Assembly (NCBI GenBank): GCA_030262725.1
Contig: JAJSZS010000004.1
Span: 1 to 64,000, forward strand
From: Candidatus Desulfofervidus auxilii
Lineage (GTDB): Bacteria; Desulfobacterota; Desulfofervidia; Desulfofervidales; Desulfofervidaceae
Length of the DNA: 64,000 nucleotides
Direction: 5' to 3'
Below are positions 46,140 to 63,940 of the stretch, in pieces; within the stretch, counting starts at the first letter, position 1, and each line of letters starts with the position of its first letter. A program made the translations under genes and the position numbers. The notes under the pieces were generated by a model. That model was given only the letters and a program-made list of their open reading frames with translations, did not search any database and was not told the DNA's origin.

Positions 46140-47162
46140 TTAACCACCTTTTCCTGTATGACAGACAAAACAGCCACAGTCTGGGTCTGATGTGCCTGCT
46201 TTACACTCATTTTCATAATCCCAACGAAGAAGATCAGGATAAGGTGAACCATGTGGACGATGACAAGAAAGACAAGAAACTTGATCCTCTCCTGGTGTTA
46301 CAGTTGAGCTAGCTGCTGTCATACCTGTTAAAGTGCTTTCAAGTCTAGCTATAGGGGCTAAAGGATTATATGTTGTATAATTTGCATATTCACCACTATT
46401 TGGTAATGCAATATCTGATGGATGTCTTTTCCAATGCTCAGTATTTTCTCCATAAAATCCCCAATGACATGCAGCACAATACCTACTTATAGAGTGAGAA
46501 GGATTTGAATAATCCCCTGAACTAGCGGCACCACAATATTCATTATGGTCATTTGAGCTTACAGTATATTCCCAATCATCATCTTCTATACCTGCAACCC
46601 CATAAAAATTATAACTACCTTCCTGAAAAGTAGATGGGTGGAAATAGTCAAGACTTAAAAACCTATATTTAACCTCTTCATCATCACCTACAACTGGGCC
46701 ATTCTCATCTCCATGATGTTTTGGATTATGACAAAAGACACATTTAGTAAGCACCATATTGCCACCACCATGACAACTACTGCAGGTTTTACCACTCTCA
46801 AAACCTGGGGTTTGAGAAAAATTTGGATCTTGACTTACACCAGGAATAGCAGTTACATTGTGGCCACATTCATCACAGCCATGAGCTACCCAATAAAAAT
46901 TTCCACCTGCAAGGGTATTTGTTCCATAAGTTGGCTCAGTTTCAGAAAAGACATAAGGGGTAGTATTTGTACCATCATTTTCTCCTGTGTGACAACCAAC
47001 ACAGTTATTTATTAATAATGACTCATAAGGGCCTCCCCCCGAAAGATTTCCGCCTTGGCTATAGTGCATAGTATGACAATTTGAACAGACACCTGATACT
47101 TTCGCCATTGCCACTGCACCATAAAACAATATACATATTACAAAAATTATAACTTTTTTCAT
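46140..47162 (-). CDS. Seven-heme c-type cytochrome (cluster paralogue A)
   Basis: 340 residues with a signal peptide (KKVIIFVICILFYGAVAMA). Canonical heme sites are CSNCH, CVGCH, CSSCH, CVFCH, CAACH, CLSCH and CFVCH. A further CDECGH lies after GGNFYWVAHG and is probably not a heme site. The protein differs from the cytochrome at 62852-63904 at only about two dozen positions over some 230 residues in the central and C-terminal parts, pointing to a recent duplication. It is also related more distantly to the neighbour at 47226. A GAGGT ribosome site precedes the start, and a perfect hairpin separates it from the preceding gene. Likely periplasmic or extracellular electron carrier. Confidence 0.93.
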   Translation of the reverse strand: MKKVIIFVICILFYGAVAMAKVSGVCSNCHTMHYSQGGNLSGGGPYESLLINNCVGCHTGENDGTNTTPYVFSETEPTYGTNTLAGGNFYWVAHGCDECGHNVTAIPGVSQDPNFSQTPGFESGKTCSSCHGGGNMVLTKCVFCHNPKHHGDENGPVVGDDEEVKYRFLSLDYFHPSTFQEGSYNFYGVAGIEDDDWEYTVSSNDHNEYCGAASSGDYSNPSHSISRYCAACHWGFYGENTEHWKRHPSDIALPNSGEYANYTTYNPLAPIARLESTLTGMTAASSTVTPGEDQVSCLSCHRPHGSPYPDLLRWDYENECKAGTSDPDCGCFVCHTGKGG

Positions 47163-47190
47163 TCTTTTACCTCAATTAAAAATCATTTAA

Positions 47191-47218
47191 GGGTCAGGTC
47201 TTTTTTTAGACCTGACCC
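47191..47218. repeat. Perfect 11-bp inverted repeat (REP-like hairpin) between cytochrome genes
   Basis: GGGTCAGGTCT (47191-47201) and AGACCTGACCC (47208-47218) enclose six T. On the minus strand it lies in the mRNA between two cytochrome genes without a following T-run. It may stabilise mRNA or be a dispersed palindromic repeat; GGGTCAGGTC palindromes recur in some bacterial genomes near RAYT transposases. Confidence 0.7.
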
Positions 47219-47225
47219 AATATTT

Positions 47226-48380
47226 TTATTTTGTAGTATGACAGATAAAGCAGCCACCTATCTCATTGCGTGGATCATCAGAAGTACCTGCCTGCATAGC
47301 ATTATAATCCCACCTTAAGATATCATCATTAGGTGTTCCATGAGCACGGTGACAGGAAACACAAAGCACAATAGTATCATCACTAAAGGTCACTGTGTCA
47401 ATGGTCATATTAGCAGAAAGAGAAGCCCAACCTACAGGCGCAATCGGACTATAAGTACCTACTGTTGAGCCTGGATGACCATAACTTCTGTATTCAGAAC
47501 CAGCATCTGTATTTCCCATATCATAATCAGTTGGATGTCTAAGCCATGGATGACCAAAGCTACCATCATCCATACCTAAGTTACCAGTACCACTATGGAA
47601 ATCTCCATGACATTCAGCACAAAGGTAACTAATAGTCGCTGTAGAACTAATTGCATCACTATTTCTATCTTCACCTAAATAGACATTATGGTCAGAAGGA
47701 CTTACAGTTAATTCCCAATCATCATCTTCTATACCTTTAATACCAAGCAAGAAACGATAACTTTTACCAACAGTGGTTCCAGCTTCTGAATCATCATAAG
47801 TAGCCAGTTTTAAACAACTATCATCAGCATGATGAGCTCCATAAATACCTGCAAACGAACCTTCTTTATCAGGATCACCATGACAACCATAAGTACCAGC
47901 ACAAGTAAATTTACTCATATCCCAAGTAGCTGGACGACCATAACTTTCAGCCTGACTATAGCCAGGGGGCTCAGTAAAAGTAGTAGAACCTATACCAGAA
48001 ACATTATGACCTTTTGCATCTCCAACCGTGGCTGCCCAGTAAAAGTTACCACCTGCCAAAACTTCACCCATACCTGCATGCAATCCATCTGTTGTATAAT
48101 TTGGTCCACCTTGACTATAAACAACAGGAACAGTAGAACCAGCAACTGTCTTTGTCACAGCAGTACCAGTATCACTATGACAACCAAGACAAGTTGTAAT
48201 CAATAAAGCTCCTTGGGGTTCGGATAAAGGAGCCCCAGTTTCATCATAGGCCATAGGACTTCCACCTTGACTATTATGCATTGTATGACAGTTATCACAG
48301 CGCCCACTCACTTTTGCCATCGCTACCACACCATAAAGCAACATACACATTCCCACTATCAACATCACAACTTTTTTCAT
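47226..48380 (-). CDS. Multiheme c-type cytochrome with an unusual CX5CH site
   Basis: 384 residues from ATG 48380, chosen because AGGAGGTGA lies just upstream; an in-frame GTG at 48389 falls inside that ribosome site. A signal peptide ends near VVAMA. Canonical sites are CDNCH, CLGCH, CAECH, CVSCH and CFICH. At residues 160-167 the sequence is CAGTYGCH, where the paralogues have CSSCH, so this is either a CX5CH heme site or a lost one. The paralogues' CDxCGH is reduced here to GDAKGH, keeping only the histidine. A strong promoter lies upstream at 48427-48455, so this gene starts a two-cytochrome (plus marC) transcript. Confidence 0.92.
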   Translation of the reverse strand: MKKVVMLIVGMCMLLYGVVAMAKVSGRCDNCHTMHNSQGGSPMAYDETGAPLSEPQGALLITTCLGCHSDTGTAVTKTVAGSTVPVVYSQGGPNYTTDGLHAGMGEVLAGGNFYWAATVGDAKGHNVSGIGSTTFTEPPGYSQAESYGRPATWDMSKFTCAGTYGCHGDPDKEGSFAGIYGAHHADDSCLKLATYDDSEAGTTVGKSYRFLLGIKGIEDDDWELTVSPSDHNVYLGEDRNSDAISSTATISYLCAECHGDFHSGTGNLGMDDGSFGHPWLRHPTDYDMGNTDAGSEYRSYGHPGSTVGTYSPIAPVGWASLSANMTIDTVTFSDDTIVLCVSCHRAHGTPNDDILRWDYNAMQAGTSDDPRNEIGGCFICHTTK

Positions 48381-48426
48381 TCCCTTCACCTCCTTTCTTT
48401 ATTATTTTACATAATTCTCTATTTTT

Positions 48427-48693: not shown

Positions 48694-49584
48694 TTATTTT
48701 ATCTCAAATACCTGAATGCGATTATTACCAGTATCAACTACATAAAGTTGTTTTTTATGTAAAAGGACATAGCGAGGATAATAAAACTCACCTTCTTTCC
48801 AACCTTTTCTTCCTATCTCACTAATAATATTGCCATTTTTATCAAAAACAAAGACCTTACACTTATGGGCATCAAGGACATAAAGATTACCACCAGCATC
48901 TATTGCAAGACTTAACGGAAAAGCTAGATTTTTTAATGATAAAGAACGAACAAATTTCCCACTATTTTTCTCATAAATAAATACTTCTTTTTTTAAAGGA
49001 TCAAGAGCATAAAGGTATTTTTTAGTTAATGCTATATCTGAAAACCCTGTAGCATCTTTTGTTTTTATCTGTTTTAAGAATTTATATTCTTTTGGAGAAA
49101 AAACTAAGATACGCTTATTTGCTTTATCAATAAGATAAAGATAACCTTCTTTATCTAATTTCATATTGCCAGGAACAGGTTTTGGAGAAATATCATTTAA
49201 AGCAAGTGGCTTAATGATTTTTTTCTTTACATCAATAATTAAAACTGAATTTTCACCTTTATTGTTAACAATTAAAAGACCCTCTTTATCTCTAAGCATA
49301 CACAAGGGAAGTTTTAAACGACCTTCTGCATTGAATTGGGAAATAAATTTGTAATATTTTTTATGATAAGAAACAAGACGATGATTTAGTGTGTCAGTAA
49401 TATAAATTTTATTTCTTTTTTCATCCAAATAAATTGCTTGTGGTTGTTTAAAATTGCCAATTTCTTCTTCAGCGTAAATAATGGTTAAGAGTTTGGCTTT
49501 GGTAAAGGCATAGCAAGAAGTAAGAAATACAAAATGCAAAATGTAAAGTACAAAGCACAAAATAAGAATTTTTTTAATCTTCAT
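48694..49584 (-). CDS. Exported NHL-repeat protein of the cytochrome cluster
   Basis: 296 residues with an N-terminal signal segment (KILILCFVLYILHFVFLTSCYA); Cys24 could be lipidated but the lipobox is weak. Repeated blades follow: QPQAIYLDEKRNKIYITDTLNHRLVSY, MKLDKEGYLYLIDKANKRILVF, LAIDAGGNLYVLDAHKCKVFVFDKNGNII, and YPRYVLLHKKQLYVVDTGNNRIQVF. It is a six-bladed-type β-propeller. It begins 21 bp after the 16-heme cytochrome stop, with a GAGGTGA site, and appears to be the last gene of the large operon. Propellers of this kind commonly accompany porin-cytochrome conduits, where they may hold cytochromes together. Confidence 0.88.
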   Translation of the reverse strand: MKIKKILILCFVLYILHFVFLTSCYAFTKAKLLTIIYAEEEIGNFKQPQAIYLDEKRNKIYITDTLNHRLVSYHKKYYKFISQFNAEGRLKLPLCMLRDKEGLLIVNNKGENSVLIIDVKKKIIKPLALNDISPKPVPGNMKLDKEGYLYLIDKANKRILVFSPKEYKFLKQIKTKDATGFSDIALTKKYLYALDPLKKEVFIYEKNSGKFVRSLSLKNLAFPLSLAIDAGGNLYVLDAHKCKVFVFDKNGNIISEIGRKGWKEGEFYYPRYVLLHKKQLYVVDTGNNRIQVFEIK

Positions 49585-49605
49585 TTTTATTCACCTCGCC
49601 AAATT

Positions 49606-50802
49606 TTATGTTTCAATTTTATGACACTGGATACAAAGTTGCTTTCTGTGGTCAAAGATCATATTAAATTTGTATTTTGTGCCCATGGGATTATGACAGC
49701 TAACACAATCCATTCCCTTTTTACATCTAGGATCTATTGCCTTTTCCCTAAGAGGATGAGTAAATTGAGCCTGACGCTTATGGCAATTAACACAGACCTT
49801 AACAACCTCTTCTTTAAAAAAGAAAGGTTCATTACTACTATGGGCAGCATGACAGTTCAAACAATTGCCTTTTTTTGCCTCTGGATGTTTATAATAATAA
49901 ACATTACTTAATAATTTATCTTTTGCATCTTGGTGGCAGGTAAAACAGATCCTAGACACAGGAGCCTTTAAGGCTGGTTTTTCATCAAAAAGATGAGGAC
50001 TGTGACAATTAAGGCAAACATTCTCACCATACCCTAAATAAAGATGAGTATAAAGTGCAGTTTCATCATTTTTAAGAGAATGACACTTTAAGCAAAGTGA
50101 ACGACTTTTTATTTTTATATCCTTGATTTTTTTTCCCTGCAAAAGGTGACATTCATTACATTGCTTTTTTGCATAAGGTTTGTGGGCAGATTGGCGTAAA
50201 AGTCCTTTCTTAGAGGAAGCATGAACATTATGGCAGGAAAGACAGATTTGTGTATTAAAGCTATGAGTATTAGAAATATTATGTGCTGTAGTCATCTTTT
50301 TCTTTGAATGGCAATTAAAGCAGAGTTTTTCAGGTTTGATGTTAAGTAGCCACTGAAATTTTCCTCCATGTGCTTGATGACAGGTAAGACAATCCCTTTT
50401 TGCAGGAGAATGTAAATTTTTTCCTGAAAGAATCTTTTTCTTTTCATGACAGCTGAAACAAACCTCTGCCTCTTGTTTTTTAAGCAATGCTTTATAAGGA
50501 GAAGCATGAGCATTATGGCATTTATTACATTCTCCTTGAATTACAGGCAAATGAGTATAATTTGTCTTTACTTCTTTATGACAATCAAAACATAGCTCTT
50601 TAACAGATTTGGTCAAAAGATTTGGCTCATTTGAGGCATGGGCATTATGACAAACAAGACAACCTTTTTGTTTTAAAGGAATGTGTATTCTACCAAGTTT
50701 TAATTCCTCTTTTACTCCTGGATGACAGCGCAAACAATCTGTACTAGCATAAATTAAAACAGGCAAAAATAAGTATAAAATAATTAAGATTATTTTCTTC
50801 AT
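49606..50802 (-). CDS. 16-heme c-type cytochrome
   Basis: 398 residues with a standard signal peptide (KKIILIILYLFLPVLIYA). I count 16 CxxCH sites, about one per 24 mature residues. They occur in the doubled-CxxCH pattern, pairs such as GCLVCHNAHAS ... LCFDCHKE separated by short lysine-rich linkers. In many pairs a histidine three residues after the first motif (CHNAH, CHQAH, CHSPH) provides a distal ligand, implying bis-histidine low-spin hemes. It begins 13 bp after the 26-heme gene stop with an AGAGGT site. Expected location is periplasm or cell surface; with System II maturation encoded at 10-12 kb. Role by inference: electron transfer across or outside the envelope. Confidence 0.95.
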   Translation of the reverse strand: MKKIILIILYLFLPVLIYASTDCLRCHPGVKEELKLGRIHIPLKQKGCLVCHNAHASNEPNLLTKSVKELCFDCHKEVKTNYTHLPVIQGECNKCHNAHASPYKALLKKQEAEVCFSCHEKKKILSGKNLHSPAKRDCLTCHQAHGGKFQWLLNIKPEKLCFNCHSKKKMTTAHNISNTHSFNTQICLSCHNVHASSKKGLLRQSAHKPYAKKQCNECHLLQGKKIKDIKIKSRSLCLKCHSLKNDETALYTHLYLGYGENVCLNCHSPHLFDEKPALKAPVSRICFTCHQDAKDKLLSNVYYYKHPEAKKGNCLNCHAAHSSNEPFFFKEEVVKVCVNCHKRQAQFTHPLREKAIDPRCKKGMDCVSCHNPMGTKYKFNMIFDHRKQLCIQCHKIET

Positions 50803-50815
50803 GGCCTTTTACCTC

Positions 50816-52729
50816 TTAATGACAATCCTGACAACGTCTTTCACCAAAAGGTTTATGTAGAACATATTTAAATAAAGCTTTATCTCTAGAACTATGAGGT
50901 GTATGACATTTGATACAATGCATCTTTGACATCTTTTTACCCAAATGTTTCTGCATCAATGTTTTATCCTTCAAATCATGACAGTTCTGGCAGAGTTTGC
51001 TGCCAGAAGCAACAAGTAACTTTGGCAATTTGCTATAATGGGCACGATGGCAAAGAGCACATTTACCTTCATCAATAGGCTTATGGATAAATGTTTCTGT
51101 CTCAGCCTTTATTATTATATCTTCTTCATGACAGGAAAGACAAAGCCCTTTCCAGGGACGATAAAGTTGATGGGAAATCTTGCTACCATGCGGACTATGG
51201 CAAATAGTACATTCTCCCTTCTTCAATGGGTCATGCACATTCTTTTCTTTTATCACCCTTTTTTCTATAGTTTTATGACAAGGATAACAACCCTCTGCCC
51301 CAATACGGATTAATTGGTCTGGATTATCAGATGCATGATGTTCATGACACTGCTCACACCTTCCACGTTTAAAAGGCGGATGTAAAACAGTTAAACCTTT
51401 TTTCATCGTTCCATGACAGTAAAAACAAAGCTCTTTATGTCTTACAGGGAAGAAAAATTTGTATGAAGCAGAATGAGGATTGTGACATTTGTAACACTCA
51501 CCTTTTTCAGCCGGTGTATGAACATTTATTTTTTTGAAACTTTTAGCAGTTTCTTTATGACACTTATAACAAAGCCCAGGTAAACTTTGCACTAAAATCC
51601 TTTTTTGTGCAGAAGCATGAGCATCATGACAGACAAGGCAATTTTCCTCATTTGCTGGTGGATGGCGATAAACTTTAGTAAATTTTTCTTTTTTATGACA
51701 TTCATAACAAATACCAGCTACAGGTTTTAAAAGCAATCTATCAGCATCAGCAGAATGTGGATTATGGCAAATAACACATTTTCCCTCATTTATGGGCTTA
51801 TGGACAAAAGAAAGTTTTGTCTTTTCTACCATAGACTTATGACAACTAAGACAAACTTCCTTTTCTTCTTTTGCTAATATACTAGCATGGTTGCTGGCAT
51901 GAGGTTTATGACAGATAAGACAGGATTCTTTTTCTAAAGGAAGATGTTTTTTTAAAGCATTAAAAGGAGGCTTTTTCTTATCATGACAACTATAACAAAG
52001 ATCATTACCTTTTATTTTAAGACCAAATGGGTTTTCTGCTTCAGGTCCTAAGTGACAGGTATCGCAATCTTGAATAGGCTTATGAGCATAGAGTTTAAAA
52101 AGAGCCTTTTCTTTACCACTGTGAGGGCTGTGGCAATCAATACAGTGATTACCGCTTACTTTATAATTAGCATGAGCTTTAACAAAATTAGACTTTTTAA
52201 TATCATGACAATCAAGACAAAGGATTTCTTTTGATTTTTTTAGACGATTTGCAATATTGGCATAATGAGGTAGATGGCATGTTTGACAATTTTTTGCAGG
52301 AGAATGAAGAAATGATAGGATAAATTTCTCAGATGTATGACAAGAAAGACAAGTTTCTTTTGGTCCTTTTACTAAAAGGAATTCATATGAGGCACTATGT
52401 GGATTGTGACACTTTAAACAATTTCCTTTTTCAAAAGGAGAATGAATCTTTTTAGCCTTAAGTTCTTTTAAATCTTTATGACATTCATAACATAGCTGTG
52501 GTAAAGCCTTATTAAGATAAACACCACCAATAAGACCATGGGAACGATGGCAAGCCTCACAATTTTTATTTTTGACTGGTGCATGAATTATTTTTTCTGA
52601 AAGAAATTTTTGAAGTTCTTTATCATGGCATTCAATACAACGCCTACCTGTTGTGATTCTTCTTTCTGGTTGTGCACAGGCAAAAACAAAGATAAATAAA
52701 AATAATCCAAACAATAAAACTTTTTTCAT
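50816..52729 (-). CDS. 26-heme c-type cytochrome lipoprotein
   Basis: 637 residues. The signal peptide ends in a lipobox VFAC (Cys18), so the protein should be lipid-anchored, probably to the outer membrane. I count 26 CxxCH motifs, one per about 24 residues, in tandem doubled-CxxCH units with CHxPH/CHxAH second histidines (CLKCHNPHSASY, CVICHNPHSAD, CYKCHNPHSASY). The units are clearly internally repeated, suggesting growth by duplication. The protein ends exactly at its last motif (CQDCH then stop). Its start overlaps the stop of the parvulin gene (ATGA). It is the most heme-rich product in the window and the likely electron wire of the proposed conduit. Confidence 0.95.
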   Translation of the reverse strand: MKKVLLFGLFLFIFVFACAQPERRITTGRRCIECHDKELQKFLSEKIIHAPVKNKNCEACHRSHGLIGGVYLNKALPQLCYECHKDLKELKAKKIHSPFEKGNCLKCHNPHSASYEFLLVKGPKETCLSCHTSEKFILSFLHSPAKNCQTCHLPHYANIANRLKKSKEILCLDCHDIKKSNFVKAHANYKVSGNHCIDCHSPHSGKEKALFKLYAHKPIQDCDTCHLGPEAENPFGLKIKGNDLCYSCHDKKKPPFNALKKHLPLEKESCLICHKPHASNHASILAKEEKEVCLSCHKSMVEKTKLSFVHKPINEGKCVICHNPHSADADRLLLKPVAGICYECHKKEKFTKVYRHPPANEENCLVCHDAHASAQKRILVQSLPGLCYKCHKETAKSFKKINVHTPAEKGECYKCHNPHSASYKFFFPVRHKELCFYCHGTMKKGLTVLHPPFKRGRCEQCHEHHASDNPDQLIRIGAEGCYPCHKTIEKRVIKEKNVHDPLKKGECTICHSPHGSKISHQLYRPWKGLCLSCHEEDIIIKAETETFIHKPIDEGKCALCHRAHYSKLPKLLVASGSKLCQNCHDLKDKTLMQKHLGKKMSKMHCIKCHTPHSSRDKALFKYVLHKPFGERRCQDCH

Positions 52730-54369
52730 TTATCACTCCCTACAAGCTCTTTATTTACCTTCTCTAGCGCTTCTTTGTCAATCTTTATTTTTGAAAGCCT
52801 TTTAAGCTCATTTAAATAAGTGACAACAAATTTATTAAACTTCTCAACCCAAATATCTTTTTTAACTTGCTTTTTTACTAACTTAAATGGTAAAGGTTCA
52901 GGAAATTTTTTATCTTCAAGCAATATAATACTATAATAGCGTCCTTCTTCTATAACTGGTGAAATCTCACCTGGTTTTAATGTTTTAATAACTTTTCTTA
53001 TGCTTTCAGGTAATTTATCTTCAGATATCCAACCTACAAGACCTCCTTTTTTAGCAGAATCACTTTTTGATTTTTTCTTAGCAAGTAAAGCAAAATCTGC
53101 TCCTGCCAAAAGTTCTTCATGAATATCTTCTGCTTCCTGAGCTGTAGAGACTTTAATTAAACGTATGTAATATTTTGCAGGAGACATATACTTTTCTTTT
53201 TTATGTCTTTCATAATATTTTTTCATTTCTTCTTCTGTAACAGTAATTTGAGGAGCAACAATTTTGCGCTTAAATTCGTTGACAAGCAGACTTATTTCAT
53301 AAATTTTTAACTTTCTTTTCAATTTTTTATCTTTTTTCAAGTAACTGCGACTTAATGCCTCCTGTTCTGCTATATGCACTTTAATCAATTCCTCCAACAC
53401 TTCCTTTTTAATATCGTCCATCTTTACTTTTATGTCCCAGCGTCTTTGCATTGCCTGATAGCCCCAAAGTTTTCTTTTTAAAATAGGCAAAAATTCTTTT
53501 ACATAGATAGGTTCTCCATTCACCCAGGCAATAATGCCTTGTATTTCTCTTTCAGGATCTAATTTTTCAAGAAGGTCTTTATTAACTTTTACTTTTGCTT
53601 TTTTTCGCCAATTATTTATTAATTCTTCTCTTTTAACCTTCTTTTTCTCTTTTAGCAATTTTCTTCGCATGCTTTTTTTTACTTTTTCAAACTTAGCCAT
53701 ATCAGGCTTTTTTATCTCCACCAATTTTATGATGTAAAAGCCTGAATCAGCTTCAATAATATCACTTATTTCTCCAGGACTTAGGGAAAAAACTGTTTTC
53801 TTCCACTTTTCTGGCATTCTTTCTAAAGGAATAAAACCCAAATCACCTCCTTTGGCTGCTTGAGGGTCTTCTGAGAACTTCTTTGCTACTTCTTTAAACT
53901 CCTCTCCTGCTTTAATGCGCTTTAAAGCCTCTTCTGCCTTCTTTTTATCTCTAGTAAAGATTTGATAGACATGAATTTTTGTATTTCTTTCTCTATATAT
54001 TTTCCTCAGTTCTTCATCTGTTATTGTGATGTCTTTTAATTCCTCCTCCCAAAGGGCATCAAGACACAGATTGCGTTTATATTCTTCAATTGCATTAAGA
54101 TAATCAGGCTCTTTATCCAAACCTAATCTTTTTGCCTCTTGGGCTATAAGATAATTTTCAATCATTCTTTGCAAAGCATTTTCAATTACATCTAAATTAA
54201 GCTTTCCTGCTGTTGTCCTACCACGCATCTGCATAAGAAGATGAAAATCAGAAAGGGCATTTTTAAAATCATCAACTTCAATTACTTCATCATTTACTTT
54301 GGCAAGAAAAGCAAAAAGAAGATTGGGAAATAGAATAAAAAGAATAATGAATAAAAAAGACTTTTTCAT
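52726..54369 (-). CDS. SurA-like periplasmic chaperone with two parvulin domains
   Basis: 547 residues with a signal peptide (SFLFIILFILFPNLLFA). An N-terminal SurA-like helical region precedes a parvulin peptidyl-prolyl isomerase domain at about residues 130-225 (VYQIFTRDKKKAEEALKRIKAGEEFKEVAKKFSED, then GGDLGFIPLERMPE and LSPGEISDIIEADSGFYIIKL). A second helical part and a second parvulin domain lie at about residues 390-485 (GGLVGWISEDKLPESI, LKPGEISPVIE). It probably assists folding of the neighbouring outer-membrane barrel or cytochromes. It lies 2 bp after the OmpA-like gene and overlaps the 26-heme gene by 4 bp. Parvulin genes are frequent companions of porin-cytochrome clusters. Confidence 0.93.
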   Translation of the reverse strand: MKKSFLFIILFILFPNLLFAFLAKVNDEVIEVDDFKNALSDFHLLMQMRGRTTAGKLNLDVIENALQRMIENYLIAQEAKRLGLDKEPDYLNAIEEYKRNLCLDALWEEELKDITITDEELRKIYRERNTKIHVYQIFTRDKKKAEEALKRIKAGEEFKEVAKKFSEDPQAAKGGDLGFIPLERMPEKWKKTVFSLSPGEISDIIEADSGFYIIKLVEIKKPDMAKFEKVKKSMRRKLLKEKKKVKREELINNWRKKAKVKVNKDLLEKLDPEREIQGIIAWVNGEPIYVKEFLPILKRKLWGYQAMQRRWDIKVKMDDIKKEVLEELIKVHIAEQEALSRSYLKKDKKLKRKLKIYEISLLVNEFKRKIVAPQITVTEEEMKKYYERHKKEKYMSPAKYYIRLIKVSTAQEAEDIHEELLAGADFALLAKKKSKSDSAKKGGLVGWISEDKLPESIRKVIKTLKPGEISPVIEEGRYYSIILLEDKKFPEPLPFKLVKKQVKKDIWVEKFNKFVVTYLNELKRLSKIKIDKEALEKVNKELVGSDK

Positions 54370-54371
54370 AA

Positions 54372-55490: not shown

Positions 55491-56997
55491 AATCCCAACC
55501 AGTAGGTAATTTTTTCTTTTTCTTTTTGCGTTTTTCTATAGTCTTGCCTTTAATAACTAAAGAATTTTTATATTCAGCTTTATTACCTGCAAAGTCTAAA
55601 GCTTCTGCTAAAACATAAAGTATTTCTGGATCTTTATCAGGCAAAGGTAATACAACTTCTTCTGGTGGATATCCCTCACCATTGGTTGAATAATAGATAT
55701 TATCTTCATTATCAGAAATACTCAAATGCCATTTAGAAACATTGGTTTTTTCTTTGCACTTAAGTTTAAATTTGACCTCTTTTTCTTTTAATTCAGCTGA
55801 TAAATTCAGTTTAGGAGGTGTTATATCAACTATAATCTTCTTTCTTTTTATCGTCGCTATATTCCCTGCCTTATCTTGACAAGCACCTTCAAGAAAATAA
55901 GTCCCCTCACTTACTTTATTAAATTGATCATCTTCTCCATGCCATGCCAAACCAAGAGGAAGCTCACCACCTCCTTCAAATCGTCGCACTATTCTTCCAT
56001 CAGCATCTCTAATTAAAAAACTCCAAAGTTTAATCTTATCTGGATGTAAAAGTGTAGGGAAGAAAATCATCATATCTTTTCTACCATCCCCATTTGGAGA
56101 AAAAATCACATTTTCATAAGAAATCCTTATTTTAGGAGGAGTATTATCTACTTCTAAAAAATGTCCTGTATCTAAAAAGCGAAAATGACCATTATTAGTG
56201 GCAAGTTTTAATTTTGCATAATATTTTCCTTCCTTATATGGAGCAGAGATAATTTTCTCCCAATAGCCATTTTCTTTTTTTTTCAAAGCCCATTTTTTAC
56301 CTCCTAAAAGAAGAAAGACCTTTTTAGGAGGCTTTTTAAGAGTAACTATCCTTAAAGATACATTTACTGAAGCACCACCCTGTACTAAAGAAGGAAAAAG
56401 AGAAAAATTTTCCAATGCAAATAAAGGTTTTTCTATAGGTTGTATCTTTTCAAATTTAATTTTTTTTGGAAATTCAGCTAAAAGTCTTTCTAAAGCATTG
56501 TCAATCAATTTATCAACAGATTTTATTTCACCCCGACAGAACCAAGAGATAAAATCTTCACTTGCAAGAGCTACATAATTTCCCCATAATACTGTGCCTG
56601 TCTCACTTGCCACTACCCTTAATCCAATCCCTATTTTAGGATGCTCACCGCTATCATAAAGGTCAACCCAGCTAATTACAACCGCATCTATACCAAAGAG
56701 TTTTTTTAACTCCTTAGCCTGAGCCTGGGTAACAACACCAAAGCGACGCACCCGATTTTGCAAAAAAAAGTCTTCTAATTTGGAAGGTAAAATGACATCA
56801 AAATTATATTTCTCTTTAAGTCTTTGAGCAATCTCAACCACAATTTCTTCAGGGACATCATTTTGACCACTTATATTATATAATGGAAAAAATGCTATTT
56901 TTTTTAAGCTTAGAATTTTTGAAGAAACTTCAACTGTAAAAATTAAAACAAATAGACAAACAAAAAATACATTTTTTAAGATAATGTTTTTAAACAT
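55480..56997 (-). CDS. Exported protein with CsgG-like N-terminus and FlgD/Ig-like repeats
   Basis: 505 residues with a signal peptide (NVFFVCLFVLIFTVEVSS). Residues about 28-180 repeat the CsgG-like pattern of the neighbours (LKKIAFFPLYNISGQNDVPEEIVVEIAQRLKEKYNFDVI, GIDAVVISWVDLYDSGE, TGTVLWGNYVALASEDF). The C-terminal half has immunoglobulin-like segments, including a FlgD-type one (ENVIFSPNGDGRKDMMIFFP, GLAWHGEDDQFNKVSEGTYFLEGACQDKAGN, VDITPPKLNLS). It is probably a periplasmic or surface assembly protein. It overlaps the 182-residue gene by 22 bp and the OmpA gene by 11 bp, so the three CsgG-like products are translated together. Confidence 0.85.
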   Translation of the reverse strand: MFKNIILKNVFFVCLFVLIFTVEVSSKILSLKKIAFFPLYNISGQNDVPEEIVVEIAQRLKEKYNFDVILPSKLEDFFLQNRVRRFGVVTQAQAKELKKLFGIDAVVISWVDLYDSGEHPKIGIGLRVVASETGTVLWGNYVALASEDFISWFCRGEIKSVDKLIDNALERLLAEFPKKIKFEKIQPIEKPLFALENFSLFPSLVQGGASVNVSLRIVTLKKPPKKVFLLLGGKKWALKKKENGYWEKIISAPYKEGKYYAKLKLATNNGHFRFLDTGHFLEVDNTPPKIRISYENVIFSPNGDGRKDMMIFFPTLLHPDKIKLWSFLIRDADGRIVRRFEGGGELPLGLAWHGEDDQFNKVSEGTYFLEGACQDKAGNIATIKRKKIIVDITPPKLNLSAELKEKEVKFKLKCKEKTNVSKWHLSISDNEDNIYYSTNGEGYPPEEVVLPLPDKDPEILYVLAEALDFAGNKAEYKNSLVIKGKTIEKRKKKKKKLPTGWDYEF

Positions 56998-57524
56998 TTT
57001 TGTATTAAAGTATAACTTACTTCTGTTAAACTTTTCTCACCTATACCAAAAAGGCGATTAAGTATTCCTCCGCCTTTCTCACTAGCACTTACCTGCCAGA
57101 TTACCTTTCCAGACTGAACATCAATTAATTTAAGAGAAATAGCTACTATAGCCAAAGAAATACCACCTGATTGTTCTGTTTTATACTCATCTACTGAGCC
57201 AGTAAAAACAGCTTGTACAGATAATCTTTGACCAATTTTTTTTATAAGAGCAGGCGTGATTTCAGAAGGTTCTCTAATTCTAAGTTCTCTTAAAACAGCA
57301 TCTACTTCACCTCGGTCTACTACTTCAAAAAGCTCTAGTTTAAGAAGTTCTGTCTCAAACACATCTCTTATTCTTTCATGAGCCAGATTATCCCGACTGA
57401 AATTGTGCAAAGGAAGAATAGCTACACGCTTTACATAAGAAATATCTGCTGTAGGATGAAGATAATAACGCACCCCAGAACCACATCCAAGTAAAACCAA
57501 TAGTAAAATGATTAGTCTTTTCAT
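56976..57524 (-). CDS. CsgG-like lipoprotein
   Basis: 182 residues. The signal peptide ends in LLGC (lipidated Cys14). The mature part is a single CsgG-like domain: VKRVAILPLHNFSRDNLAHERIRDVFETELLKLELFEVVDRGEVDAVLREL, then LSVQAVFTGSVDEYKTE and DVQSGKVIWQVSASEKGGG. CsgG family proteins form outer-membrane export pores or serve as accessory lipoproteins (FlgO/FlgT, LpoB). The missing extra transmembrane hairpins make a pore unlikely. An AGGAGC site precedes the start. It follows the β-barrel gene by 9 bp and precedes two other proteins with the same type of domain. Confidence 0.85.
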   Translation of the reverse strand: MKRLIILLLVLLGCGSGVRYYLHPTADISYVKRVAILPLHNFSRDNLAHERIRDVFETELLKLELFEVVDRGEVDAVLRELRIREPSEITPALIKKIGQRLSVQAVFTGSVDEYKTEQSGGISLAIVAISLKLIDVQSGKVIWQVSASEKGGGILNRLFGIGEKSLTEVSYTLIQKCLKTLS

Positions 57525-57533
57525 ACTAAGCTC

Positions 57534-59585
57534 CTAAAAACTCAATGAATATTGGACGTAAAAACTTCTACTTTTTTCTTCAATTTCATTAGTAATTTTA
57601 TTAAAACTCCATCCTGCACGAAAGTTTGAGTGTCTGCCAATATTCCAATTCAAGTCAAGTGTATGAGTCATTTCATCTCTTAGTTCTGCCTCTGTAAATC
57701 TACTTATCCAACTTAATTGAATTTTCCGAGTTAAAAATATTCCCATACTATACTCATGTAAAAATCTTGTTTCTATTTCAGTTTTATTATATTGCAAAAA
57801 AACTCTTCCGTAAAGACGGGAAGAAGGAGTATACACTAATGTTGTATTGATATTTGTGTAAGTAGTAGTTGTAGTCTCCTCATTACTAGTACGTTGCCAA
57901 CTTTGATTATAATCTATATCCCAAGAAAGGTATCTTGTAATAATAACTCTTAAATAAATATCAGAAAAAATACTTAAAGATTCAGTTCCTGCTTCACTTT
58001 TGGTGCGAGAGACATTAAAATTCCAATTAATATCTACCCCTTCCCAGATGGTAGCTACTGTTGTAAGGATAGCACTATCTACTTTAGAATCATAGCCTTC
58101 TTCACTATCGGTTTCTGAATGAGTTAAGGTGAATGAAGTAGTTAAAGTTTCAAAAGGGACTGAACGGATATTGAGACTATAAGTATCTACTATTACTTCA
58201 TCATCACCAGTAACATTTTTTGATCTTTGGTAACTTAATGTTGGGGTAAAATAACGAGAGAGCTCCCAGGTAATATTAGCACCATGACTTAAGGTATAAT
58301 TTAATGTATCCTGAGGAGAAATCTCTGCACGGTAATAAGATAGATGATATGCTGTGCTCCACTTCTCCCAAGGACGGGCAGAAAGACTGAAATTTCCTGT
58401 CCATGTCTTAGTGGAAGTTTTTGTTTTTTCTTCTACATATTCAAACCCATAGGCTTCAATTTCAGTAATGGATATTGAAGTTTGAGAATGATAGACTACC
58501 TTAAAATATTTGGCATTGGTTTCAGAAAAATCAATTTCAAACCGATGATATACAGAATTAAAAGTAAAAGAGGCATTAGAGGTGATAAGTGTCCAGTTTT
58601 TGGTTGTATTGTCATCATTACTGTAATAAACAGCCCAGGTAATTTTTTGGGCTTCAGTAGGATTTTCTGGATAGACATATGTTGATTCAGTATAAATATA
58701 AATTGTATCAACATTTGCAGCCTCAAAAAGGCCAAGACCAATATTCATATTATTAGAAGCAGATAGCACTACTGTTGTTAAGTCTCCATCAATCAATCCT
58801 GGGGTAGATGTTAATTCATCTGGTTTACTAACTGTTGGAGTTGAATCAATACCAGAAAATCCCTCTTTAGGATGTAGTTTTTCTTTTACCGTGCCTGCCT
58901 CAAGTCTTGTTATAGTGCTATCAAAATAATTAAATCCTCCTTCCCCAGAAATACTTAGACGATTATCTAAAAAGTTTTGATGAACACCTAAGCGAGAAAT
59001 ATGGTTATTGCCTACCTGTTTTGTGTCTGTCACAAAATCAGTTGAAGTATTACGCATATAATTATACATAATATCAAGGAATTTGTAAGTATGAGTAAAA
59101 CCGGCTAAAAGACTATCTGATTTGGTATTTATTTGGTGCTCCTCTAAGTGGTCTTTGCTTCGCGAATGGGTATATTGAAATGACATCTTTGGCCATTTTT
59201 CCATTTGACTCATCATATTTAAATTCCAAAAAGAGGTGGTTAATCTTTGGTCATCATATGTTTCAATACGATTATAAGAAGCATTGCCAGAGAAATACTC
59301 ATTAATGGTATTAAGAGAAAAGGTAGGATAAAGAGTAGTTTGTTCATCTTTGTTAGTCTTTGAATAATTAACTCTTGTACTTAAATTGCAAGTTGTATTA
59401 GGGGTAAGGTAAGCTGAATAATCTAAAAAATAGTTTTGAATTAATTGCCAAGTAGTTTCTTTTTCTCCGTCAGATTCTGTTTTAGTATTGCGATAATAAA
59501 TATCTAAGCTGCCTGTTATATCTTGCGCAAAACAAGAAAGACTTAAAAGGAAAGAACATATTACTATAACTATCCATAGCTTCAC
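57534..59585 (-). CDS. Outer-membrane β-barrel with inserted discoidin-like domain
   Basis: 683 residues from GTG 59585, with GGAGAG 5 nt upstream and a signal peptide (IVIVICSFLLSLSCFA). The mature protein is a succession of amphipathic β-strands with aromatic girdles (SLDIYYRNTKTES, NLSTRVNYSK, MSFQYTHSRSKDH, LSYYRAEI, ISRFTEAEL), ending in FYVQYSLSF with a terminal Phe, the hallmark of outer-membrane barrels. Between about residues 225 and 385 is a different segment (GLIDGDLTTVVLSAS ... VDTIYIYTEST ... WAVYYSNDDNTTKNWTLI ... RFEIDFSETNAKYFKVVYHS ... ITEIEAYGFE) that matches the pattern of F5/8 type C (discoidin) carbohydrate-binding domains. It is the best candidate for a cytochrome-lined barrel of an electron conduit. 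Confidence 0.85.
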   Translation of the reverse strand: MKLWIVIVICSFLLSLSCFAQDITGSLDIYYRNTKTESDGEKETTWQLIQNYFLDYSAYLTPNTTCNLSTRVNYSKTNKDEQTTLYPTFSLNTINEYFSGNASYNRIETYDDQRLTTSFWNLNMMSQMEKWPKMSFQYTHSRSKDHLEEHQINTKSDSLLAGFTHTYKFLDIMYNYMRNTSTDFVTDTKQVGNNHISRLGVHQNFLDNRLSISGEGGFNYFDSTITRLEAGTVKEKLHPKEGFSGIDSTPTVSKPDELTSTPGLIDGDLTTVVLSASNNMNIGLGLFEAANVDTIYIYTESTYVYPENPTEAQKITWAVYYSNDDNTTKNWTLITSNASFTFNSVYHRFEIDFSETNAKYFKVVYHSQTSISITEIEAYGFEYVEEKTKTSTKTWTGNFSLSARPWEKWSTAYHLSYYRAEISPQDTLNYTLSHGANITWELSRYFTPTLSYQRSKNVTGDDEVIVDTYSLNIRSVPFETLTTSFTLTHSETDSEEGYDSKVDSAILTTVATIWEGVDINWNFNVSRTKSEAGTESLSIFSDIYLRVIITRYLSWDIDYNQSWQRTSNEETTTTTYTNINTTLVYTPSSRLYGRVFLQYNKTEIETRFLHEYSMGIFLTRKIQLSWISRFTEAELRDEMTHTLDLNWNIGRHSNFRAGWSFNKITNEIEEKSRSFYVQYSLSF

Positions 59586-59594
59586 AAATCTCTC

Positions 59595-60971
59595 CTATTC
59601 ACCAGTTAAAATCAGAGCATAAGGTTCATTTCCTACAGAAATACGCTCAATTTCCTTTTCTCTTATCAAATCTATTACACTAACAGTGTTTTCTTTTAGG
59701 TTAGTTACATAAAGCAATTTTCTATCTCTGTCTAAAGCCAAACCACAAGGATGAGTACCAACAGAGATTCTTTTAAAAACTACATTGCTTAAAGGATTAA
59801 TAAAAGAAATATCATTACTTTTTTCTCCAGTCACATAAAACCAATTTTGAAGTCCTTCAATAATCCTAGCTGGGGAATTTGGGACAAAAATAGTTCGAAC
59901 TTCCTCTAAAAAAAGACGTTTCAAAACAGTTACAGTATTTGTTTGAGCATTTGAAACCAAAATATATCTATCTGTTACTATAAGATATCTTGGTTTTCCT
60001 CCAACACCTATTGTATGTACAACAGTATTATCATAAGTATCTATAACAGAAATATCATTAGAATAACTATTTGCTACATAAACATATCTCCCATTAGGGT
60101 CTGCAGCTATACCTATTGGGCGTTGTCCTACATCTATCTTTTTTACAAAGTGTTTTGCCTGAGCATCTATAACCAAGACAGCATTAGAACTTGTAGCAGT
60201 AACATAAAGATATTCTCTACCCATAACTGAAACTAATACTAATTCATTAAGCTCAACACCCATAGGACAGGAAATAGTATCCATTACCCGATTGCTCATC
60301 ACCTCTATAACTGAAATATTTTGAGAAATTGAGTTTACAACATAAAGGCGACTTTTGTCTTCTGAAAGCACCATACCTTTTGGGGATTTACCAACAGTAA
60401 TATTATCAATTACCTGATGTGTACCACGGTCAATAACTGAAATATAATTATCACCTGAATTGCTGACATAAAGCAAAAGTTGCTTTAAACCTGTCCTGCC
60501 CTGACCAATCTCCATTGCTAAAGTAAATGTATCATCCTTTATAGAATTTTCAGGATACCATGTTAAAAAAAGGCTTGTAGTCTGTTTTGGACGAATATTG
60601 ATAGAAACTGAAAAGATAAATAGTCCATTTTTTGAAAGAGAAAGAGGCTTATATTTTGAATAGGCTTCTTTTACTTTAAATGAAATTTTTTGATAAAAAC
60701 CTGCTGGCAATTGAATTTTGGCAAGTAAAATTTGTTTATTAAGAAGGGAAAGGGCATCTATTTTTTTTAGTGTTGGGGTAGAATTAAATGTTAAACCAGA
60801 CTTATCCTCTATCTGGATGGTCTCTAAAACGAATTTTACACTGACTGGGCGACCTACAGTTTGAAGGTATATTATCAACTCACCTTGTTTTTCAGATATT
60901 TCTCTAGAAAAAGGAACACAGCTAAGAATAAAAAATAAAATAAAAATAGAAAAATAAGAAATATATCTCAT
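59595..60971 (-). CDS. YVTN-repeat β-propeller lipoprotein
   Basis: 458 residues. The lipobox ILSC gives a lipidated Cys18. Residues about 22-165 are a β-rich domain, of which the later part resembles DUF4382-like folds (QLPAGFYQKISFKVKEAYSKY). From about 170 onward, seven YVTN-type blades repeat: LLLYVSNSGDNYISVIDRGTHQVIDNITVGKSPKGM, RLYVVNSISQNISVIE, YVYVANSYSNDISVIDTYDNTVVHTIGVG, and LLYVTNLKENTVSVIDL. Such propellers sit on the cell surface and bind proteins. It starts after TAGGAGGAAACT and ends 9 bp before the β-barrel gene, so they are in one operon. Confidence 0.9.
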   Translation of the reverse strand: MRYISYFSIFILFFILSCVPFSREISEKQGELIIYLQTVGRPVSVKFVLETIQIEDKSGLTFNSTPTLKKIDALSLLNKQILLAKIQLPAGFYQKISFKVKEAYSKYKPLSLSKNGLFIFSVSINIRPKQTTSLFLTWYPENSIKDDTFTLAMEIGQGRTGLKQLLLYVSNSGDNYISVIDRGTHQVIDNITVGKSPKGMVLSEDKSRLYVVNSISQNISVIEVMSNRVMDTISCPMGVELNELVLVSVMGREYLYVTATSSNAVLVIDAQAKHFVKKIDVGQRPIGIAADPNGRYVYVANSYSNDISVIDTYDNTVVHTIGVGGKPRYLIVTDRYILVSNAQTNTVTVLKRLFLEEVRTIFVPNSPARIIEGLQNWFYVTGEKSNDISFINPLSNVVFKRISVGTHPCGLALDRDRKLLYVTNLKENTVSVIDLIREKEIERISVGNEPYALILTGE

Positions 60972-60986
60972 TAGTTTCCTCCTAAC

Positions 60987-61430
60987 TCACTTAAATGGGT
61001 TCACTGCCTTTATTTCTTTTATATTTTTAAAATCATTTACATTTATTGTATAAATGGTAGAAATTCCCTTACTGAGCATAGTAGCTACTAAAAATATATC
61101 AAAAAACCTTTGAGCACAAATATTATATTTATGCCCTAATTCAATAGCAATTTTTAATACTTCTTCTGTAGGATAAATTTTTCTTATAAAATCTGCTTCT
61201 AAATATTTCTTTACTTCTTCTTTAGCTACTTGTGGAGACAAAGGTTTTTCCACTCTTTTTCTGTCCGTTATAACAGCATAAAACTCAACAAGATTTTGGA
61301 TTGAGACATAAGTCTTTAAAATACCTTTTTCGGCTTTTTCTCTTAGTGCCTTGGCTTTACTATGAAAAGGAGAGGCTTTATTGGCTGCATAGACAAGAAT
61401 ATTAGTATCAAACAGAACTTGAACGTCCAT
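60987..61430 (-). CDS. PIN-domain toxin, VapC-like
   Basis: 147 residues. PIN-domain toxins are magnesium-dependent RNases. Active-site acids are visible as Asp8 in LFDTNILVYA, Glu in IQNLVEFYAVI, Asp in AQRFFDIFLVATML and Asp in TINVNDFKNI. The gene overlaps the antitoxin gene by 23 bp. Unlike many VapBC pairs, this partner resembles Phd/YefM. The pair separates the two 5'-most cytochrome genes of the cluster from the YVTN-barrel part, only 15 bp before the YVTN gene, so readthrough from the toxin gene may serve the barrel operon. Confidence 0.92.
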   Translation of the reverse strand: MDVQVLFDTNILVYAANKASPFHSKAKALREKAEKGILKTYVSIQNLVEFYAVITDRKRVEKPLSPQVAKEEVKKYLEADFIRKIYPTEEVLKIAIELGHKYNICAQRFFDIFLVATMLSKGISTIYTINVNDFKNIKEIKAVNPFK

Positions 61431-61650
61431 TGTAAATATCTTTCCTTCTTATAGTGCCTTTTATTGCACCAAGATCATATTCACCAAAAATAATCTTTTG
61501 ATTTCTTTTAAGCCTCCTATATTCCTCAATGGGAAGAAGCACTGCTACTGGACGTCCCCTTTTTTCTAAGATTATAGGCCCTTCAATTTCAACTTGTTTA
61601 ATCAATTTAGAGATTTGACTCCTCAATTTAGATAAATTAATTGTCTGCAT
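61408..61650 (-). CDS. Phd/YefM-family antitoxin
   Basis: 80 residues. The N-terminal DNA-binding pattern is typical: MQTINLSKLRSQISKLIKQVEIEGPIILEKRGRPVAVLLPIEEYRRL. The tail (GEYDLGAIKGTIRRKDIY) would wrap the PIN toxin. A Shine-Dalgarno AGAGGT precedes the ATG and a promoter lies at 61678-61705. Phd-type antitoxins usually repress their own operon. The 23-bp overlap with the toxin gene supports translational coupling. Confidence 0.92.
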   Translation of the reverse strand: MQTINLSKLRSQISKLIKQVEIEGPIILEKRGRPVAVLLPIEEYRRLKRNQKIIFGEYDLGAIKGTIRRKDIYNGRSSSV

Positions 61651-61677
61651 AAATTTACCTCTTTAATTGTTTGTTTA

Positions 61678-61705
61678 AACATAGCATATAATAAATGACT
61701 GTCAA
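61678..61705 (-). promoter_or_regulatory. Promoter of the toxin-antitoxin pair
   Basis: Minus strand: TTGACA (61705-61700), 16 nt, TATGTT (61683-61678), then a leader with AGAGGT before the antitoxin ATG. It may also feed the YVTN-barrel genes downstream. Confidence 0.45.
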
Positions 61706-61714
61706 GTTAAGTTT

Positions 61715-62842
61715 TTAAAAGTTAGAACTGCCATGATAGTGACATTCTGAGCATGGTTTTCCAGTATGATCTCTATAATGGCAACGCAAACAAAGTGTTT
61801 TCCAACCATCATGAGTATCTGCTGTAACATTAGTAATATTGCCATTCACTTCTTTTCTTATTAAATACTTATATGAATAAGAACCATGAGGTTCATGACA
61901 ATCCAGACAGGATAAGACATAATTAGATACAGCAGTTACATCATAAGGAGGCTTTATTATAGGTTGTCCATCACGATAATCTCTACTTCTTATTGCATTT
62001 CCATGTTTATCTGTATTCCAATTTATAGGGGTATGAGAAAGACCATAACTGCCCATATCATAAACATGACAGTCTTGACAGAAGCTAACATAATCAATAG
62101 TTTTTTGTGCTTGAGTATTTAAATCACAACTAGCACCATCTGGTTCACAAGCAGTAGTACTATTATGACGATAAGGTGCCTGATATTTATTAGGAGCATA
62201 ATCATTCATTGTCTGAGTCCAAAGCTCATTATGAGCAGAAGGTTTAGATATGGCAGAATAATTAGGATCACCTGGATTTTCTTTATTTCTTCTGGCTAAA
62301 TGAGGATTGTGGCAGGCACAACAGGGATTTGAATCTTCTTTGAACCAGGAAGAAAAATTTGTTTTAGCAAAGTCCCAAACATCATAAAGATTATGGTAAG
62401 AATTTTGATTGAATGCCTCATATATACTGTCAATGCTAGAATCAGTATATCCACCAAAAGTGCGGCTATAATTATAATTAGTAAAATTTGGTGTTTGTAA
62501 ACTAGTTGCATCAGTGTAACAATGACAATAAAAGCAAAAATTATCAGATTGTTCATAAGAACCTGTAGATTTACCACTAAAATTGTCTGCAAAAAGACAG
62601 AATGCAGAAGCATCTCCTGATGAAGGCGTTGGCTCTCCTCCATCAATACTTGCATGCTGCTCATGACAATGAGCACAGTTACCTCTAGCATAGCCACTTA
62701 ATTCAGTCACATCTCTTTTTACACCATAACTGTTATTACCATGGGCAGAATTAAGATAAGGGCCAGCTATGACTATGTGGCTAGTGTTTAAAACCAAAAT
62801 AATTGAGATTATAAGAGAAAGTTTTTGAATCCAATCTTTCAT
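61715..62842 (-). CDS. Seven-heme c-type cytochrome, second family
   Basis: 375 residues with a signal peptide (IISIILVLNTSHIVIAG). Heme sites are CAHCH, CFYCH, CCACH, CQDCH, CLDCH, CLRCH and CSECH, seven in all. It begins with AHGNNSYGV and includes ARGNCAHCHEQHAS, DCHEPHGSYSYKYLIRKE and a dense C-terminal pair (LCLRCHYRDHTGKPCSECH). The loops are rich in Asn, Tyr and Ser, typical of surface-exposed cytochromes. It is not closely related to the 340/350-residue pair. It begins 9 bp after the preceding cytochrome stop with a TAGGAGAG site, so both are on one transcript. Probable outer-surface or periplasmic electron carrier. Confidence 0.93.
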   Translation of the reverse strand: MKDWIQKLSLIISIILVLNTSHIVIAGPYLNSAHGNNSYGVKRDVTELSGYARGNCAHCHEQHASIDGGEPTPSSGDASAFCLFADNFSGKSTGSYEQSDNFCFYCHCYTDATSLQTPNFTNYNYSRTFGGYTDSSIDSIYEAFNQNSYHNLYDVWDFAKTNFSSWFKEDSNPCCACHNPHLARRNKENPGDPNYSAISKPSAHNELWTQTMNDYAPNKYQAPYRHNSTTACEPDGASCDLNTQAQKTIDYVSFCQDCHVYDMGSYGLSHTPINWNTDKHGNAIRSRDYRDGQPIIKPPYDVTAVSNYVLSCLDCHEPHGSYSYKYLIRKEVNGNITNVTADTHDGWKTLCLRCHYRDHTGKPCSECHYHGSSNF

Positions 62843-62851
62843 AAATCTCTC

Positions 62852-63904
62852 CTAATCCTTTGTTGTATGGCAAACATTACACCCATTTGTTCCACTACCT
62901 GGCCATCCTTGATAATCCCAACGCAATATATCTGGATAAGGAGAAGCATGTGGACGATGACAGGAAAGACAAGAAACTTGATCCTGTCCTGGTGTTACAG
63001 TTGAGCTAGCTCCTGTCATACTTGTTAAAGTGCTTTCAAGTCTAGCTATAGGAGCTAAAGGATTATATGTTGTATAATTTGCATATTCACCACTATTTGG
63101 TAAGGCAATATCTGATGGATGCCTTTTCCAATGCTCAGTATTTTCTCCATAAAATCCCCAATGACATGCAGCACAAAATCTACTTATAGAATGAGATTTA
63201 CCTGAATAATCCCCTGAACTAGCAGCACCACAATATTCATTATGGTCACTTGAGCTTACATCATATTCCCAATCATCATCTTCTATACCTGCAACCCCAT
63301 AAAAATTATAACTACCTTGCTGGAAAGTATATGGATGGAAAGAGTCAAGGCTTAAAAACCTATATTTAACTTCCTCATCATCACCTACAACTGGGCCACT
63401 ATCATCTCCATGATGTTTTGGATTATGACAAAAGATACATTTAGTAAGCTCCATATTACCACTACCATGACAACTACTGCAGGTTTTACCACTCACAAAA
63501 CCAGGGGTTTGAGTAAAATTTGGATCTTTACTTACGCCAGGAATAGCAGTTACATTATGACCACATCCATCACAGCCATTGGCTACCCAATAAAAATTTC
63601 CACCTGCTAATGGATTTGTTGGCTCTTGGGTATTATAAACAATGGGAACACTGCTTTTTCCACTTCCTGCACCAATTTCCTTTATGGTTTGACTATCGTT
63701 TGAAGAATGACACCCTACACAGTCATTTACTAATAAATATTCTCTTGGCCCACCTTTCTCCCAATAAGATGGCCATGGACTTTGACTGGAATGCATTGTA
63801 TGACAATTTGAACAAACACCTGTTACCTTAGCCAGAAGATAGGTAGGAAATAAACAAATAATTAATAAAAATACTATTAAATAACTTTTTTTTTGTTCAT
63901 ACAT
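62852..63904 (-). CDS. Seven-heme c-type cytochrome (cluster paralogue B)
   Basis: 350 residues from ATG 63904. The frame is open to 63940, but a promoter (TTGACA/17/TAAAAA) covers that stretch and puts the transcript start at this ATG, which also begins the signal peptide (YLIVFLLIICLFPTYLLA). Heme sites are CSNCH, CVGCH, CSSCH, CIFCH, CAACH, CLSCH and CNVCH; CDGCGH is additional and probably not heme. It closely matches the cytochrome at 46140-47162 in the same orientation, 16.7 kb away. The N-terminal fifth and the last 20 residues differ most. It is the first gene of the whole cytochrome cluster. Confidence 0.93.
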   Translation of the reverse strand: MYEQKKSYLIVFLLIICLFPTYLLAKVTGVCSNCHTMHSSQSPWPSYWEKGGPREYLLVNDCVGCHSSNDSQTIKEIGAGSGKSSVPIVYNTQEPTNPLAGGNFYWVANGCDGCGHNVTAIPGVSKDPNFTQTPGFVSGKTCSSCHGSGNMELTKCIFCHNPKHHGDDSGPVVGDDEEVKYRFLSLDSFHPYTFQQGSYNFYGVAGIEDDDWEYDVSSSDHNEYCGAASSGDYSGKSHSISRFCAACHWGFYGENTEHWKRHPSDIALPNSGEYANYTTYNPLAPIARLESTLTSMTGASSTVTPGQDQVSCLSCHRPHASPYPDILRWDYQGWPGSGTNGCNVCHTTKD

Positions 63905-63911
63905 CACATTT

Positions 63912-63940
63912 TTTTTACTGCCTATCTTTATTTTTGTCAA
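63912..63940 (-). promoter_or_regulatory. Promoter of the cytochrome cluster, leaderless geometry
   Basis: Minus strand: TTGACA (63940-63935), 17 nt, TAAAAA (63917-63912), 7 nt, ATG 63904. The last 60 bp of the window contain no gene. Confidence 0.55.

Follow-up and report, generated by a model that had tools for sequence, protein, structure and literature searches.

An oet/osc locus of a Desulfofervidaceae-like sulfate reducer with a probable role in cytochrome filament assembly and electron transfer through the outer membrane

Here we have analysed a 64,000-nucleotide stretch of Candidatus Desulfofervidus auxilii DNA (contig JAJSZS010000004.1; the window in what follows) and find at positions 46140-63940 a multiheme cytochrome cluster whose sequence marks it as a well-preserved version of one known from Geobacter and from methane-partner sulfate reducers. 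The cluster is real and well conserved, its kind is already on record, and it is new in the host genome; its probable roles are the assembly of cytochrome filaments and the transfer of electrons through the outer membrane. The reading that we favour, with somewhat more belief than doubt, is a combined assembly-and-wiring machine for OmcS-type filaments, that is, an oet/osc locus in a Desulfofervidaceae-like sulfate reducer. The host genome (G000; 2.27 Mb in 72 contigs) carries dsrA with an adjacent paralogue, and we infer a host of that description. The published operon with 26- and 16-heme cytochromes of methane-partner sulfate reducers and the nanowire-assembly operon of Geobacter thus appear as one conserved locus plan with a nearly fixed order and a constant 26-heme count, a plan that unites conduction with the export of filaments in one module open to testing. 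The principal genes are as follows.

46140 to 47162, minus strand: OmcS-family cytochrome with 7 CxxCH motifs, candidate filament subunit (motifs, profile match, heme-site alignment)
47226 to 48389, minus strand: OmcS-family cytochrome with 5 CxxCH motifs and one CX5CH, candidate filament subunit (motifs, heme-site alignment)
48694 to 49584, minus strand: six-bladed NHL beta-propeller, possible lipoprotein (Pfam NHL, E=7.5e-17; N-terminus LTSC)
49606 to 50802, minus strand: 16-heme MtrA/DmsE-like cytochrome, OetA / OscJ by position (motifs, family match, synteny)
50816 to 52729, minus strand: 26-heme MtrA/DmsE-type lipoprotein cytochrome, OetB / OscI by position (TIGR03508, 6r2q, lipobox)
52726 to 54369, minus strand: periplasmic double-parvulin prolyl isomerase, OscH-type (Pfam Rotamase, two stretches)
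54372 to 55490, minus strand: PelC/CsgG-fold protein with a C-terminal OmpA peptidoglycan-binding domain and a lipoprotein-like start (OmpA, E=3e-19)
55480 to 56997, minus strand: PelC/CsgG-fold domain followed by Ig-like domains (weak GNA1162-like and Big_3/Big_13/FlgD_ig matches; orthologues)
56976 to 57524, minus strand: short PelC-like lipoprotein, predicted ring former (profile, fold search, lipobox LLGC)
57534 to 59585, minus strand: candidate outer-membrane beta-barrel, OetI / OscE by position, with a discoidin/CBM32-like insert (signal peptide, C-terminal Phe)
59595 to 60971, minus strand: YncE-type beta-propeller lipoprotein, OscD by position (family matches; orthologues adjoin the barrel)
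62852 to 63940, minus strand: OmcS-family 7-heme cytochrome, duplicate of 46140-47162 (profile match, DNA identity, heme-site alignment)

The six cytochrome genes of the window encode 68 canonical CxxCH motifs (7, 5, 16, 26, 7 and 7 in coordinate order), just as a preliminary description of this DNA had counted. This number is far beyond chance, since shuffled versions of the same cytochromes give a mean of <0.4 CxxCH per protein and all open reading frames of at least 60 amino acids in window positions 1-46000 hold one such motif in total. The cluster genes share the minus strand, with boundaries that agree with those first proposed, and inside 48694-60971 the intergenic distances lie between -22 and +21 bases, which is what one operon would show. 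A gap of 304 bases separates 48389 from 48694, so the OmcS-like pair at 46140-47162 and 47226-48389 may form a transcription unit of its own. The window end cuts the cluster, and two further 12-heme genes lie past it, so that the full cluster encodes eight cytochromes with 92 canonical motifs in all.

An operon core of six-bladed propeller, 16-heme cytochrome, 26-heme cytochrome and prolyl isomerase was published in 2017 for SEEP-SRB1, Ca. Desulfofervidus and metal reducers (PMC5539420), and in 2023 the conduit was named OetABI, with OmcS-, OmcX- and Apc2a-like companions (PMC10553843). These four core genes are adjacent in the window at 48694-54369. With the oet operon of syntrophic sulfate reducers, Ca. 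Desulfofervidus auxilii among them, the window shares the core and OmcS/OmcX-like cytochromes, and it has a candidate for the barrel; unlike that operon, it has three OmcS-family genes on both flanks of the cluster, an OmpA domain fused to one PelC-like protein and an inserted toxin-antitoxin pair. The Geobacter osc (omcS-companion) operon, reported in 2025, comprises omcS, omcT, oscC, OscD, OscE/F/G, OscH, oscI (GSU2495) and oscJ (GSU2494); a paper that cites this work gives folding as the proposed role of OscH, secretion as that of OscE/F/G and morphology as that of OscD (PMC13194489), and GSU2495 holds 26 hemes (PMC12977616). Shared between this G. sulfurreducens operon (GSU2494-GSU2504) and the window is the order omcS-like gene, propeller, barrel, PelC-like genes, prolyl isomerase, 26-heme gene and 16-heme gene, whereas the window has one additional PelC-like gene, OmcS relatives with 7 and 5+1 hemes rather than 6, and adjoining 12-heme cytochromes. 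Going by position, we equate oscD with the propeller, oscE with the barrel and oscJ with the 16-heme gene; the Osc letters of the window genes are likewise assigned by position and protein type, not by sequence comparison with Geobacter.

The same plan recurs well beyond the host. The relatives compared comprise four genomes of the same family, one of the same order and others related at phylum level only. One of them, G001, is a single 2.54 Mb contig of the same family; its cluster has the same order as the window at ~50-78% protein identity. With local variation, G001, G003, G013 (twice), G022 and G058 repeat the series propeller, barrel, PelC-like genes, prolyl isomerase, 26-heme, 16-heme and NHL propeller, as do most of 20 additional regions. 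In 15 of those 20, a protein with exactly 26 motifs is encoded, which together with six earlier loci makes 21; regions in G179, G155 and G361 without called cytochromes were not counted as absences, as the greedy open reading frame caller possibly picked antisense frames. Three genomes (G300, G067 and G286) have 6-heme OmcS-like genes upstream and show the osc order. This comparison of gene order, together with the exact correspondence to the published core operon, supports the earlier proposal of an Oet-like trans-envelope electron conduit. The accompanying suggestion that the composition marks a new type has to be given up, since the pair of 26- and 16-heme proteins is the signature of the published operon and CsgG/PelC-like genes come after the barrel in most relatives examined.

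The proteins at 46140, 47226 and 62852 are homologous to OmcS over nearly their full length (profile A4, built without the closest OmcS relative, against OmcS 6ef8, E=2e-14), so that the cluster is a locus for filament assembly no less than a conduit. A stronger match of profile A2 (E=4e-34) was set aside as biased by a close OmcS relative inside that profile, and a phmmer search of the Protein Data Bank (PDB) with one 7-heme protein alone gave no match. All six OmcS heme sites align in order in the window homologues; the 7-heme forms have these six and one extra between hemes 3 and 4, and in 47226-48389 the third is a CX5CH (CAGTYGCH), which the alignment places exactly at the OmcS heme-3 column. 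This protein therefore has a probable sixth heme site. CX5CH occupies that column in 11 of 11 five-heme OmcS relatives found, 47226-48389 included, and in two six-heme ones; the "five-heme" relatives with CX5CH are likely six-heme proteins. One published homologue has been termed pentaheme (PMC9539880), and a lengthened heme motif is already on record for OmcZ (PMC9473688). "Pentaheme" OmcS-like proteins may, given CX5CH, have been undercounted by one heme; the motif at the heme-3 position is apparently unreported so far, the papers that one text search listed containing no CX5CH, which is weak evidence of novelty. The N-terminal CxxCHTMH of OmcS is retained in the window homologues, including its last His, which we take to be the residue that ligates a heme of the neighbouring subunit. 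In OmcS, one ligand of heme 5 is supplied by the neighbouring subunit (PMC6584659), and the three window homologues may likewise polymerise into filaments. Two of them, 46140-47162 and 62852-63940, stand at opposite ends of the cluster and have 92% DNA identity over 712 bases, a recent duplication or gene conversion.

By sequence, the 16- and 26-heme proteins resemble MtrA. Both match chain A of 6r2q, which we take to be MtrA (E=4e-15 and E=2e-19, respectively); the 26-heme protein also exceeds the cut-off of TIGR03508 (DmsE/MtrA family) and begins with a lipobox (VFAC|AQP). Unlike MtrCAB, the window has a barrel candidate without detectable MtrB/PioB similarity, and no MtrC. The two propellers and the double parvulin named in the preliminary description have the corresponding Pfam matches, and orthologues of the latter share 53, 50 and 45% identity with it.

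A hint of export comes from the three proteins that had been labelled CsgG-like. All three genes are present, one with an OmpA domain as described, but PelC fits better than CsgG, at least in the case of 56976-57524. The latter appears closest to PelC both by sequence (profile A6 against PelC 9h80, E=4e-9) and by fold, with the PelC dodecamer and PelBC as best matches and PelC ranked over CsgG, from a model of moderate confidence (predicted local distance difference test, pLDDT, 56). CsgG has about 260 amino acids; 56976-57524 has 182, with a partial Pfam CsgG match (39-150 of 210), and a CsgG curli pore with transmembrane hairpins was rejected on these grounds and on the higher rank of PelC. 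The N-terminal half of 54372-55490 resembles the CsgS family, and its orthologues in G001, G003 and G058 (183-189 amino acids) end before the OmpA part; the anchor to peptidoglycan thus seems to be a variation particular to this locus. As in the PelB-PelC exporter (9h80), a (candidate) barrel and small PelC-fold lipoproteins stand together here, although with three different PelC-like paralogues instead of one; by analogy, these could form a ring, and the similarity, apparently unreported for this locus, suggests what the export gate may look like. Export of a polysaccharide was rejected, as a Pfam scan of the cluster proteins revealed no Pel synthesis genes.

The protein at 57534-59585 is a candidate outer-membrane beta-barrel, an assignment based on its signal peptide, its C-terminal aromatic residue (Phe) and a beta-periodicity ~2 standard deviations above shuffles; its OetI / OscE label is given by position, not by comparison with the reference OetI (OEU57520.1). 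It has no Pfam match, no similarity to MtrB/PioB (Pfam PF11854 / TIGR03509) and no sequence match to PelB. Positions ~240-376 of profile A5 resemble discoidin/CBM32 domains (E 0.007-0.03), and this insert, apparently unreported so far, is conserved in the aligned orthologues. The barrel family is found in 55 of 395 sampled phylum genomes, and a scan of the genome contigs with the barrel as query gave one relative only.

In the combined machine that we propose, the double-parvulin chaperone would hold cytochromes export-competent in the periplasm, and the barrel, seated on a ring of PelC-like lipoproteins of which one would be tied to peptidoglycan by its OmpA domain, would serve as the passage through the outer membrane for protein, electrons or both. 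Once outside the cell, the OmcS homologues would polymerise into heme-stacked filaments, which the propellers may shape or anchor. Together with the pair of 12-heme proteins, the MtrA-type 16- and 26-heme proteins would relay electrons between the filament and a periplasmic cytochrome pool that would feed sulfate reduction. In a more specific version, possible but less likely than not, the barrel and the PelC-like trio would work as a PelBC-style ring-and-barrel exporter from which OmcS-type filaments emerge in 7-heme and "5-heme" formats side by side, the latter binding six hemes with the third held via CX5CH.

We favour this combined machine over a plain conduit or a pure exporter because throughout the phylum the genes for filament subunits, for parts suggestive of export and for MtrA-type wires are found together in a single order. 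In a plain porin-cytochrome conduit, as in the published OetABI model (PMC10553843), the 16- or 26-heme MtrA-type protein would plug the barrel as MtrA does in MtrB, filaments would only dock, and the PelC-like proteins would be accessory. The matches of both proteins to MtrA and the DmsE/MtrA family, and the lipobox of the 26-heme protein, agree with that model, but the barrel is without detectable MtrB/PioB similarity, whereas the second conduit of the genome has it, and the conserved prolyl isomerase and PelC-like genes look like parts for export, not conduction; OscE/F/G of Geobacter, too, are proposed as secretion proteins (PMC13194489). We consider the plain conduit rather unlikely. If the locus were instead purely a machine for cytochrome export and folding, the 16- and 26-heme proteins would be periplasmic carriers, and electrons would cross via the OmcK/OmcL-type pair on contig 5. 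Such a division of labour would suit the PelBC-like architecture, the second decaheme and MtrB-family porin of the host genome, and the roles proposed for Geobacter osc (PMC13194489). It is nonetheless improbable: across the examined loci, the 26- and 16-heme pair accompanies the barrel operon, and some operon-bearing genomes, e.g. G003 and G022, have no match to the second porin. A soluble respiratory pathway for nitrite, tetrathionate or the like, which the preliminary description had named as an unrelated known function that homologous clusters might encode, deserves hardly any credence; several cytochromes do have NrfH/NrfB/c552 matches, but these are weak, with scores well under the family cut-offs, the genes stand in the oet/osc order, and we rejected the pathway because no catalytic reductase subunit was found in the cluster.

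Several points weigh against the combined machine. OmcS is dispensable for Geobacter anode biofilms and for Fe(III) oxide reduction (PMC13194489), and the need for the filament is therefore disputed. The mechanism is a proposal drawn from gene content, homologies and conserved gene order, and the two longer proteins (54372-55490 and 55480-56997) match CsgG/PelC weakly. Finally, the barrel model has a mean pLDDT of 30.5 from a two-row alignment, which establishes neither a closed barrel nor its bore; of the signal-peptided beta-barrel first described, the signal peptide stands and the barrel is a candidate.

The remaining features in and beside the cluster are the following.

60987 to 61430, minus strand: PIN-domain toxin, local insertion (Pfam PIN, E=9e-14)
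61408 to 61650, minus strand: Phd/YefM antitoxin, local insertion (Pfam, E=5e-16)
61715 to 62842, minus strand: 7-heme cytochrome from a family of its own, a conserved neighbour of the YncE propeller (motifs; orthologues in G001, G002 and G003)
Contig positions 64060 to 65774, outside the window: two 12-heme cytochrome genes (L009 2061-2921 and 2933-3775)

At 60987-61650 the cluster is broken by the PIN/Phd toxin-antitoxin pair, which separates the YncE propeller from the 7-heme gene and is missing from the corresponding place in G001 and G003; the toxin, a local insertion, probably does not belong to the system. The separate 7-heme cytochrome at 61715-62842 has no convincing relative among solved structures.

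The second conduit, on contig 5 of the host genome (L120 8245-11485), pairs an OmcK-type decaheme of the GSU2203 family with an OmcL-type, MtrB-like porin of the GSU2204 family. A pair of this kind is reported for HotSeep-1 as HS1_RS02760/02765 (PMC10553843), and G001, which is probably the HotSeep-1 organism Ca. Desulfofervidus auxilii, has one too, its decaheme gene and MtrB-family porin lying directly upstream of the cytochrome cluster (L022 9200-12461). The porin frame carries one in-frame TGA, which nearly every full-length match across the phylum retains, and this TGA-bearing family is already catalogued as selenoprotein family NF041027 (PMC13188914, PMC9312934). Both selB and tRNA-Sec are present, and a hairpin lies just after the TGA in the host (z -2.3), while the G001 sequence is without significant folding. 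Elsewhere in the host genome, more small multiheme cytochromes are encoded at C1:162043 (5 motifs), C16:44525 (7) and C6:55680 (4).

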